A stretch of 36,802 nt of DNA from a virus, in the IMG/VR virus record IMGVR_UViG_3300010399_000061, positions 1 through 36,802 of that record; one strand, written 5' to 3'. Shown here one piece after another: positions 11,258 to 15,587 of the stretch. The position numbers were made by a program, and so were the translations under genes. A model generated the notes under the pieces. It was given only the letters and a program-made list of their open reading frames with translations, had not been told where the DNA came from and searched no databases. Position 1 is the stretch's first letter, and every line of letters starts with the position of its first letter.

Positions 11258-11286
11258 ATCTTATGGTATTTGTTGCCATATGGCAA
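11258..11286 (-). promoter_or_regulatory. leftward early promoter
   Basis: On the minus strand TTGCCA (11286-11281), a 17-base spacer, then TAAGAT (11263-11258). It faces the early operon that begins at 11205. Its -35 box is one arm of the palindrome TTGCCATATGGCAA; the other arm is the -35 box of the rightward promoter. Both operator copies overlap it. Confidence 0.6.
11262..11280. promoter_or_regulatory. operator copy 1
   Basis: TATGGTA-TTTGT-TGCCATA, an interrupted palindrome with one mismatch. It shares the pattern TATGGYA-N5-TRYCRTA with sites at 11279, 16825 and 16844. It covers the leftward spacer and the rightward -35 box. It is the likely binding site of the Cro-like protein encoded at 11332. 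Confidence 0.6.
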
Positions 11287-11301
11287 GTGTTATCGTATAA
11301 T
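11273..11301 (+). promoter_or_regulatory. rightward promoter for the Cro-like gene
   Basis: TTGCCA (11273-11278), 17-base spacer, TATAAT (11296-11301): a near-consensus sigma70 promoter ending 30 bases before the ATG at 11332. Operator copies 1 and 2 cover its -35 box and spacer, so a bound repressor would block it, consistent with autoregulation. Confidence 0.72.
11279..11297. promoter_or_regulatory. operator copy 2
   Basis: TATGGCA-AGTGT-TATCGTA. It overlaps copy 1 by two bases, so the two centres are 17 bp apart, under two helical turns, and on similar faces of the helix. The left half is identical to the sites at 16825 and 16844. Confidence 0.58.
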
Positions 11302-11331: not shown

Positions 11332-11529
11332 ATGACTCCAGATGATGTTTACAAATATTACAAATCAACCTATAGGTTTAACAAACAGACAGGGATGTCA
11401 CACAGAAGTCTTATTAACTGGCTTAGATGGGGATTTGTTCCGGAAGCCTCGCAATACAAGATAGAGCGATTGACAAACGGCGAATTGAAAACAGAGTGGA
11501 GTATAAAGAGTGAAGCTATTCAGGGATAA
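11332..11529 (+). CDS. P22-Cro-like transcription regulator
   Basis: 65 residues. The segment DVYKYYKSTYRFNKQTGMSH followed by SLINWLRWG and FVPEASQYKIERLTNG matches the P22 Cro family (PF14549 type): a short helix-turn-helix protein ending in PxxxQxKIExLTNG. Cro dimers bind palindromic operators and turn down early transcription. It is the first gene after the operator-controlled rightward promoter, as expected for an autoregulated Cro. No CI-like partner is found next to it or elsewhere in the window, which points to a lytic phage or one that has lost its lysogeny module. Confidence 0.85.
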   Translation: MTPDDVYKYYKSTYRFNKQTGMSHRSLINWLRWGFVPEASQYKIERLTNGELKTEWSIKSEAIQG

Positions 11530-11809
11530 ATTTTATTATTGTTTGCGCTGTAACAAATTTAATAGTTCTGTTTGCAAGGGTGCATCATGTACCCCTCAGG
11601 ATTCTGTTTATATTCCGGTTATAAAATTGAGCAGGAGAGAGAAATTTTACATATGGATGCTTGATCATGATTTATTTTATTATTTGCAATTGGCGTCCGG
11701 TTGTATCATTAACGCCATTGTAATTCAAAGACTGGATTTAAGCGCCTGGGAACGCATTGTTGAGCCAATTTGTGCAGGATTTTTTCTGGTTGGAATAATA
11801 AAAAAATGA
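11510..11809 (+). CDS. small Cys-rich protein with C-terminal membrane segment
   Basis: 99 residues from a GTG start at 11510, eight bases after GGAG, overlapping the end of the Cro-like gene by 20 bases. The N terminus has YYCLRCNKFNSSVCKGASC (CxxC...C-x4-C), a possible zinc site. Two hydrophobic stretches follow, YLQLASGCIINAIVI and IVEPICAGFFLVGII, ending KK, so it probably sits in the inner membrane. It is coupled by ATGA to the TnpA-like gene. No family is recognised. Confidence 0.6.
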   Translation: MKLFRDKFYYCLRCNKFNSSVCKGASCTPQDSVYIPVIKLSRREKFYIWMLDHDLFYYLQLASGCIINAIVIQRLDLSAWERIVEPICAGFFLVGIIKK

Positions 11810-12444
11810 GAACCCCATGGAATAATGAAACATCTTTTGAATGGTATCAGCATATAGAGAAGCAATTAAAAAATAATATGGGAATAAGGCAATATTCACG
11901 AATACATAATATATGTAAAACAACTTATTCCAACTTTTATTGTCGTGTTATTGGTTGCCAATTAAGCAATCCGGAAAAATATAAAATTATGATAGAAACC
12001 ATGGAAAAATTCATGGTTAGTGATTTAACCTATGACAGTTTTTGTTACTCATCAAAAATTACAAGAGCTGATTTGCATACTATATTGGCTCATTTTTCCA
12101 TATGGAAACGCATTGACGAACAAATGATTGTCAATGGCATTGATCCATTGGAATGCCCCTATAATCCATTCAATCATCTCAAAAACCGGGAAATGGGTAT
12201 GAATTTTATTAAATTAAAAAGTGACCGCGCATCCCAAATGTCAGAAAAAATGTCACGGAACCGCACTAATTTGCAACCAACGGAGCCAACGGATCCAAGA
12301 GAGCCAGCAGAGCCAAAGGAGGAATATATCAAGGCAAGGAACGATATTGAGATATCTATCAGTTACGGGATTAAAGTATTTTTACCCTCTGACCTAGAGG
12401 GCGAAAAAATACTGAAAGTTATAAATTTTTTGAAGGAATTATAA
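11806..12444 (+). CDS. IS66 TnpA (OrfA)-like protein
   Basis: 212 residues from ATG 11806, an ATGA overlap with the upstream stop. Residues 11-50 (FEWYQHIEKQ...YSRIHNICKTTYSNFY) and 60-103 are two related helix-turn-helix-type repeats like those of IS66 TnpA. A Pro/Glu-rich linker of GAGCCA-type repeats (PTEPTDPREPAEPKE, 158-172) precedes the C-terminal box ISISYGIKVFLPSDLEGEKI...INFLKEL, which matches the end of IS66 TnpA. In IS66 elements TnpA and TnpB are accessory proteins needed with the transposase TnpC. Here TnpC is absent. The TnpB-like gene follows in a TAATG overlap. I read this as a domesticated or stranded pair. Confidence 0.68.
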   Translation: MRTPWNNETSFEWYQHIEKQLKNNMGIRQYSRIHNICKTTYSNFYCRVIGCQLSNPEKYKIMIETMEKFMVSDLTYDSFCYSSKITRADLHTILAHFSIWKRIDEQMIVNGIDPLECPYNPFNHLKNREMGMNFIKLKSDRASQMSEKMSRNRTNLQPTEPTDPREPAEPKEEYIKARNDIEISISYGIKVFLPSDLEGEKILKVINFLKEL

Positions 12445-12794
12445 TGTTACTAAGCTATGAAAACAGAAACGTATATATCGCATCGCAACCCGTTGATTTC
12501 AGGATGTCTATAGACGGACTATCGCGATTTATTCAACGCCATATGCCCAATCACATTCATGATGGATCTATCTATACCTTTTATAACCAGAAAAAAGATA
12601 AAATCAAATGCCTATACTGGGATAGAAACGGTTTTGTCCTGCACTATAAACGCTTTGACAAATGCACCCTGAAAATACAAAAAATGCTTAAAACCATTGA
12701 ATCCATATCCCCTGAAGAACTGGAAGTGCTTTTTTCCGGAATGGAATCTCATGAAGTCGCAAGACATCCATTTTTAATCGAACACAAAGGATAG
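12444..12794 (+). CDS. IS66 TnpB (Orf2)-like protein, PF05717 type
   Basis: 116 residues. All main IS66 Orf2 features are present: VYIASQPVDFRMSIDGLSRF (5'-side box), then SIYTFYNQKKDKIKCLYWD, then GFVLHYKRFDK, and finally SPEELEVLFSGME. The length is normal for the family, so the gene is intact. Its molecular function is not established; it is required for IS66 transposition. This TnpB is unrelated to the RNA-guided TnpB of IS200/IS605. No IS66 transposase, inverted repeats or target duplication were seen around it. The start overlaps the TnpA-like stop (TAATG) after a GAAGGAATT site, as in native IS66 operons. Confidence 0.85.
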   Translation: MLLSYENRNVYIASQPVDFRMSIDGLSRFIQRHMPNHIHDGSIYTFYNQKKDKIKCLYWDRNGFVLHYKRFDKCTLKIQKMLKTIESISPEELEVLFSGMESHEVARHPFLIEHKG

Positions 12795-12797
12795 ATA

Positions 12798-12962
12798 ATG
12801 TTTACGAAAACGGAACTTGACCATATTTTGTTTGCGCTTAACGACTGGAATTCCCCTGCCTCGCAATTGTCGTGTTACGTGAAGATAAGAAATAAAATCA
12901 TGCAAATAATGGACAAAATAATATCAAATGATGAAGATGACAAGGATTTTAAAAACGACTAA
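12798..12962 (+). CDS. 54-residue acidic protein after the TnpB-like gene
   Basis: A 54-codon ORF starting MFTKTELDHILFALNDWN and ending in an acidic tail (NDEDDKDFKND). Its AAAGGA site overlaps the end of the TnpB-like gene and only three bases separate the two genes. It occupies the position where an IS66 element would carry tnpC but is unrelated to it. The opening TxxELDxIxxAL slightly resembles the MNDFTxxELExI family of the leftward operon. No function is recognised. Confidence 0.58.
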   Translation: MFTKTELDHILFALNDWNSPASQLSCYVKIRNKIMQIMDKIISNDEDDKDFKND

Positions 12963-12967
12963 GATGA

Positions 12968-13066
12968 CTACAGGCAGCAGTTTGCGCTACTGCCTGTAGC
13001 TGGCGAGAGCCGGTGACAGCCCACACTGTGATTCTTGAGGCAACAGCGCGAACTTGCTGCTATTTT
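12968..13066 (+). ncRNA. structured intergenic RNA, possible leader or small RNA
   Basis: Stem 1: CTACAGGCAG (12968-12977) pairs perfectly with CTGCCTGTAG (12990-12999). Stem 2 starts at the next base: CTGGC, a GAGA tetraloop of GNRA type, then GCCGG (13000-13013). Two weaker stems follow: ACAG/CTGT (13016-13029) and CAGC/GCTG (13044-13059), with CTATTTT after the last. The stretch fills the gap between the TnpB operon and the gene at 13100. It may be a leader, a processing site, an antitermination element or a separate RNA. No Rfam-type family is recognised. Confidence 0.5.
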
Positions 13067-13386: not shown

Positions 13387-14013
13387 ATGGGTTATGTAAT
13401 AAATATAGAAATTAATGGCTATGAATTTAAATTTGGATACCTTGGGTATCCTTATGGTGGACTAGGGGTTTACATAGACTTTGATAATGAAAAGATAAAA
13501 CGCGATATTTCTTTAAAATCTGATGATTTACTCGAGGCAATAAAGGAATTATTTCATTGCAGCGCTGAACTTGATGCGCTTTACACCATAACAAATTTTG
13601 AAATGCATGAATTACAGGGTAGGGGTTGGGAAGCCCTTACACAATATAATTCTTTTAATACTTTGGAAAGATACAAACAAAAGGCATTAATTGTTTTAAA
13701 TAGCAAAATAGCTGATGCTGAACAATTGGCAACAGCAAGCACTATTATATCCATATTGGAAGGGAATTATATTTTTCCACCTCCTGTCGAAAAAACGCCT
13801 GAACAAAAAGCCAAAATAGCATTTGATAAAAATAAAAACAGATTGAAACTTAAATTAACTGTAAAGCTGGGTTATTTTTGCGATAATTGTGCAACTAACA
13901 AAGAAAACAGTTTATGCCTTGTACAGAAAACAAAGGATCCATTTAATTATGATTTGGAAAATCTGACTTTGCGTTGCAGAGGTTGTATAAATAAATTGAA
14001 ACCGAAACAATAG
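13387..14013 (+). CDS. protein with C-terminal degenerate HNH-like zinc domain
   Basis: 208 residues. The N-terminal 70 residues form an unknown beta-rich domain (GYVINIEINGYEFKFGYLGY...VYIDFDNEKIKRDI). The C terminus, about 150-208, has KLGYFCDNCATNKENSLCLV, then DLENLTLRCRGCINK. It has the spacing of an HNH endonuclease (CxxC ... N-L ... CxxC), but the histidine expected in the LxLVQKTKD box is missing, so nuclease activity is unlikely. It may be a decayed or repurposed homing-type protein. Start ATG 13387 follows AAAGGAG. Confidence 0.6.
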   Translation: MGYVINIEINGYEFKFGYLGYPYGGLGVYIDFDNEKIKRDISLKSDDLLEAIKELFHCSAELDALYTITNFEMHELQGRGWEALTQYNSFNTLERYKQKALIVLNSKIADAEQLATASTIISILEGNYIFPPPVEKTPEQKAKIAFDKNKNRLKLKLTVKLGYFCDNCATNKENSLCLVQKTKDPFNYDLENLTLRCRGCINKLKPKQ

Positions 14014-15389: not shown

Positions 15390-15587
15390 ATGCAGCAAGG
15401 GATTGTGAAGTGGTTTGACGACCAGCGTGGTTTTGGATTTATCAAAGCTGAGGACAAGGAATATTTCGTGCACTACAAGGGCATTTCGGGTACGGGATTC
15501 AAGACCCTCAAAGAAGGGGACCAGGTCCGGTTTGAAACCGAAAAATCCCCCAAAGGGTTGACAGCGGTGAACGTTCAGATTCTCTGA
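15390..15587 (+). CDS. cold-shock domain protein (CspA-like)
   Basis: 65 residues, full length for the family. MQQGIVKWFDDQRGFGFIK contains the RNP1-type GFGFI, YFVHY is RNP2, and GDQVRFETE...GLTAVNV closes the five-stranded OB fold. One or two Csp positions differ (VHYKGI in place of VHFSAI). It binds single-stranded nucleic acid and can melt RNA structure, which may matter in a phage with several folded leaders (inference). It follows AAAAAGGA and is the last rightward gene before the opposing cluster. Confidence 0.88.
   Translation: MQQGIVKWFDDQRGFGFIKAEDKEYFVHYKGISGTGFKTLKEGDQVRFETEKSPKGLTAVNVQIL

Follow-up and report, generated by a model that had tools for sequence, protein, structure and literature searches.

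A TnpC-less IS66 TnpA-TnpB pair in a group of phages: evidence for a domesticated transposon module

Genes and features at the locus

The window, i.e. the whole stretch of DNA analysed here (36,802 nt), corresponds to the virus record IMGVR_UViG_3300010399_000061, a 36.8-kb contig with P22-type structural genes (portal family, P22 coat protein). On its plus strand, a candidate early rightward promoter (TTGCCA-17-TATAAT, 11273..11301), proposed solely from its match to the consensus (11 of 12 positions, the top of the region), is followed by cro, orf99, tnpA, tnpB and a 54-aa ORF, in this order. The first gene of the operon (11332..11529) encodes a P22-type Cro repressor (PF14549, P22_Cro, E 4e-7, 30.1 bits against a cut-off of 30.2; phrog_409, 1.9e-10), and Cro proteins of related phages are 48-65% identical. 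It is overlapped by orf99 (11510..11809), for which no match was found in the family libraries and no homologue among the terminase relatives.

The two genes of interest are tnpA (11806..12444; 212 aa), coding for an IS66-type accessory protein with two helix-turn-helix (HTH) units and an IS66-type tail, and tnpB (12444..12794; 116 aa), coding for an IS66 Orf2-type protein (PF05717, 91.7 bits, cut-off 26.6; NF033819, 83.3 bits, cut-off 50). They share a TAATG junction with a 1-nt overlap, common to 22 of 31 family members, and no match to TnpC (PF03050) was found in the whole record. Thus, the description given in an earlier note on this DNA (a start-stop coupled IS66 TnpA-TnpB pair lacking TnpC) was borne out, while the ATGA junction by which it tied the pair into the cro operon is present upstream of tnpA but joins it to the intervening orf99.

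The acidic 54-aa ORF after tnpB (12798..12962, plus strand), described by the same note as sitting where tnpC would be, does exist; nevertheless, its membership of the module is not supported, as it had no match in the family libraries and no homologue among the terminase relatives, and other family members carry unrelated small ORFs in its place. Hence, it was rejected as an obligatory third partner.

The segment directly after this ORF (12965-13066) is strongly structured (RNA fold z-score -4.0), with a local 13-bp hairpin competing with a long-range stem; it had no Rfam match and no similar sequence among the fetched loci. Further downstream, the window encodes a 208-aa protein (13387-14013) without a family match, which shows a CxxC...CxxC pattern at its C-terminus and has homologues in L036 and L003, and a phage-borne cold-shock protein (15390-15587; PF00313, 80.8 bits).

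Architecture of TnpA and TnpB

Taken alone, the window TnpA matches the model NF047593 weakly (17.2 bits, cut-off 28), and its assignment is secured by its relatives, since 18 of 24 family members match this model (E 0.1) and the homologue from locus L053 reaches 39.3 bits. AlphaFold was run on a 24-sequence TnpA alignment with L053 as the first sequence, and the L053 model (mean pLDDT 85.8) has a helical N-terminal part, predicted with confidence, and a short tail made of a hairpin and a helix. The two helical halves of TnpA are homologous (hhalign 96%, P 3e-9). The first HTH unit (residues about 9-50; 11830..11955), placed in the window protein by alignment to the L053 model, is the counterpart of the single canonical unit (NF047593 match at residues 12-45), while the second (residues about 58-105; 11977..12120) is an extra unit of the phage family that is absent from the canonical Legionellales TnpAs, which are shorter and have one HTH unit. 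The best conserved part of the protein is its C-terminal tail (residues 179-212; 12340..12441), with a mean pairwise identity of 0.53 versus 0.22 for the HTH units. The HTH region carries a net positive charge in most members, but one near zero or negative in some. A fold search with TnpA gave nothing significant, a PDB sequence search gave no match, and a search for a TnpA binding site by repeated k-mers gave nothing convincing. In one locus (L164:337-1485) we observed a TnpA that combines the IS66 tail with four HTH units; it is followed by a metallophosphoesterase gene in place of tnpB, and no TnpB is found on this 10.6-kb fragment.

The phage TnpB keeps the IS66-invariant residues (D18, R20, L26, F46, K55, W59, D60, G63, K69, R70 and G99), and we reason that it has thereby probably retained the ancestral activity. 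The best match in the TnpB fold search was a restriction-endonuclease-like protein (E 0.18, not significant), and no effector domain was recognised by Pfam and fold searches. In seven loci (L048, L051, L052, L055, L060, L063 and L065) tnpB is ATGA-coupled to variable small membrane-protein ORFs of 56-70 aa.

A family of TnpC-less pairs in one broad phage group

The terminase led to 25 other records, of which one, L011, carried the pair, on the opposite strand, in a different operon and without TnpC. Used alone as query against viral contigs, the window TnpB yielded no match; the rest of the family was recovered with alignments as queries, the first of the window and L011 TnpBs and the second of 20 sequences. 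The family thus comprises the window, 34 viral contigs and a 41-kb contig from the bin of a Desulfosporosinus MAG (L104), which has the same TnpC-less pair. Wherever a contig extends far enough, tnpA directly precedes tnpB. A portal cluster is common to 18 of the 20 carrier genomes or loci compared, which indicates one broad phage group. In a tree of 53 TnpBs, 33 phage TnpBs fall on one side of a single branch (support 100/99), separate from every IS66 TnpB sampled. The deep branches of this tree are weak, and the systematic search for a cellular source covered the Legionellales only; a portal search for hosts in the same order gave distant matches only (about 25% identity).

The earlier note had suggested a profile search for TnpC-less pairs next to cro: TnpC-less pairs were indeed found in 34 more viral contigs, but the pair comes after cro only in the window and in L102. 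Elsewhere its neighbours are recT, ssb or nuclease/exonuclease genes (G001, G002, G027 and L103) or, in most other members, it stands just upstream of terL, often with tRNAs between; of the 35 loci in one terminase clade whose sequence extends 2 kb or more upstream of terL, 19 have it there. The regions are of early type, and the pair is co-directional with its neighbours. It is also dispensable, being missing from some relatives: in L160 (7479-7993) it was deleted between the c32 gene (a small neighbour) and a small membrane ORF, and the remaining 25 or so last codons of tnpB, flanked by intact neighbours, show that loss occurs by deletion. With at least three early positions and a loss in one relative, a fixed linkage to cro was rejected; the pair is a module accessory to early-type regions and does not belong to the core of a single circuit.

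Other proposals on its surroundings fared no better. Neither c32 nor the small membrane ORFs can be obligatory third partners, as L160, L168 or L179 have them but not the pair. The frequent location before terL raised the idea of a Q-type late regulator, which was not supported, since relatives without the pair show no obvious replacement. Near the pair in L101 (8493-8990), and upstream of terL in L153 and L165, an RNA-ligase-like gene (PF09414) and tRNA clusters with as many as seven genes were seen.

Missing transposase and missing ends

In IS66 elements, TnpC normally starts no more than a few hundred bases from TnpB. No TnpC (PF03050) was found in the 35 viral records with the pair, many of which are fragments. 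As a control, viral contigs were scanned with ordinary IS66 TnpBs, which gave 47 TnpBs outside the phage clade; TnpC was present in all 41 of the ordinary loci with more than 600 nt downstream. Most of the cellular TnpBs that the phage query retrieved also have it next to them.

For the element ends, we used as reference an IS66 of the Legionellales genome G191 (2469 bp, defined from four copies), with 22-bp ends (GTAARCGCTTAATTAACCYCAC) and 8-bp target duplications; ten copies of it (e.g., L233) have identical TnpB scores. Scanning 31 phage pairs with the Legionellales IS66 end (GTAAGCG-type terminal inverted repeats) gave shuffle-level matches only, while the IS66 element, as positive control, scored 22/22. 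The earlier remark that no terminal inverted repeat accompanies the pair therefore holds against a real IS66 end, and the phage locus lacks two features that define an IS66 element, TnpC and, for the end type scanned, terminal repeats.

Divergence and selection

In close pairs of phages the TnpBs are 81-97% identical with a pN/pS of 0.04-0.18 (synonymous sites mostly near-saturated), a pattern that argues for strong purifying selection, whereas the TnpAs of the same pairs are 31-72% identical (pN/pS 0.24-0.58). Among genes of the same phages, the mean identity of TnpB (0.82) is close to that of TerL (0.86) and portal (0.87), so that TnpB changes at about the rate of terminase and portal; the HTH region of TnpA stands at 0.33 versus 0.53 for c32. 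The recognition helices are no more variable than the remainder of the HTH units; as they are not singled out for change, the low HTH identity may partly reflect relaxed constraint. In one comparison (L051 versus L066), TnpBs that are 97% identical accompany TnpA tails of only 47% identity.

An apparent frameshift was seen in one tnpA (L061) among about 33 distinct pairs. The earlier note saw the pair as immobile and recruited for another role, and named a nearby tnpC or IS66 ends, or frequent frameshifts in relatives, as observations that would speak against this. The lack of mobility features, the constraint on TnpB and the family of intact pairs all agree with recruitment, and neither tnpC nor IS66 ends came to light.

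Interpretation

It is well supported that the pair is a domesticated IS66 module, which has lost transposase and ends and is kept under selection by one broad phage group whose structural genes are of P22 type. This stems from the single TnpC-less TnpB clade, the strong purifying selection, the duplicated DNA-reading region of TnpA and the lack of mobility features. A decaying remnant of an ordinary IS66 insertion could account for the tnpB remnant of L160 and the frameshifted tnpA of L061, yet it is contradicted by selection and phylogeny (one clade with about 33 distinct pairs that are intact, conserved coupling, duplicated HTH); a single decaying insertion was rejected on the strength of the 34 relatives and the selection results, and we regard decay as hardly credible.

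Considering that a TnpB under purifying selection is combined with a duplicated, fast-changing DNA-reading part of TnpA, the phages most likely employ the pair for a new purpose that involves DNA targeting. Among the functions first proposed, DNA binding is the likeliest element, judging from the predicted fold and the pattern of divergence. In the model that we favour as the best single guess, TnpA would bind a particular DNA site via its tandem HTH units and may hold TnpB through its conserved tail; TnpB would perform a constant job at the bound site, most likely within an early-expressed nucleoprotein or regulatory complex. We give this domesticated two-protein targeting complex an even chance of being right. 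Also in its favour are the invariant residues kept by TnpB, the four-unit TnpA of L164 and the location in early-type regions. Counting against it are the failure to find a binding site by k-mers, recognition helices that vary no more than the rest of the HTH units, the not always positive HTH charge, the tail divergence between L051 and L066, the dispensability of the pair in relatives, and the L164 TnpA without TnpB on its fragment.

A variable reader paired with a constant partner would also suit two other roles, directed against host IS66 or against competing phages. Phage TnpA and TnpB, lacking TnpC, could occupy IS66 ends or tie up the host TnpC, and so block IS66 transposition into the phage; the invariant residues kept in TnpB are consistent with this, as are the recent-looking identical copies of the Legionellales IS66 (with TnpBs 44-47% identical to those of the phages) and the possibility that variable HTHs track variable IS ends. 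Even so, we deem such interference unlikely. That the pair targets sequences of competing phages, its HTH region varying under mutual selection, would suit a cassette that is accessory, patchy and movable and that joins a constant protein to a variable recognition part, but appears quite improbable: the window proteins matched no PADLOC-DB defence model (the one match, of L053 TnpA to Cas9 at E 0.039, was spurious), no effector domain was recognised in TnpB, and the pair sits among early genes, not in a lysogenic cargo region. An accessory role in phage recombination or replication would agree with the recT, ssb or nuclease neighbours in G001, G002, G027 and L103 and with the DnaD-like replication gene that follows the pair in the window; as most members are located elsewhere, before terL, we hold it to be very unlikely.

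Returning to the targeting complex, we put forward, tentatively and with more doubt than confidence, that the IS66 TnpA and TnpB gave rise to a new two-protein phage system: a variable protein with tandem HTHs would direct a constant TnpB effector to selected DNA, and the system would act as a regulator, an IS blocker or a means of exclusion. To our knowledge, the roles of TnpA and TnpB within IS66 are unsettled; if the proposal is true, the activity of this system would also reveal the part of TnpB in IS66 transposition. In a phage group that has retained just TnpA and a heavily constrained TnpB, but not the transposase, what the two proteins do is uncoupled from transposition and can be tested in a small system. 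The pair is, moreover, a clear further example of domestication by phages in which accessory genes of a transposon, and not a transposase, were taken up, with a modular DNA-reading protein that has two, and once four, repeated units.

Comparison with known systems

Our literature search found no description of TnpC-less IS66 pairs in phages. The window TnpB matches PHROG 623 (phage proteins called transposase) at positions 130-234 of 259 (1.7e-22); the phage TnpAs do not match it, and its category, integration and excision, does not suit a locus that lacks the transposase. Cultured phages with IS66 copies (Marin, Leptospira LE1 type and Streptococcus phiStag1) also carry a TnpB of the same Pfam family, but these TnpBs are 27-32% identical and, unlike the pair described here, adjoin TnpC. 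The Marin protein (Pseudomonas phage; L041:3974-4318) is annotated as a transposon-associated TnpB endonuclease, a confusion with the unrelated IS200/IS605 TnpB.

Among the TnpA models, NF047593 corresponds to the first phage HTH unit (with the window member below its cut-off), and the C-terminal half of NF047595 aligns weakly to the L053 tail (E 0.073); compared with both, the phage TnpA has a second HTH unit and a long linker. The G191 IS66 element resembles the phage pair in its homologous TnpA and TnpB, their order and coupling, and the same invariant TnpB residues, while the phage locus differs from it by lacking TnpC and terminal repeats and by a TnpA with two HTH units instead of one.
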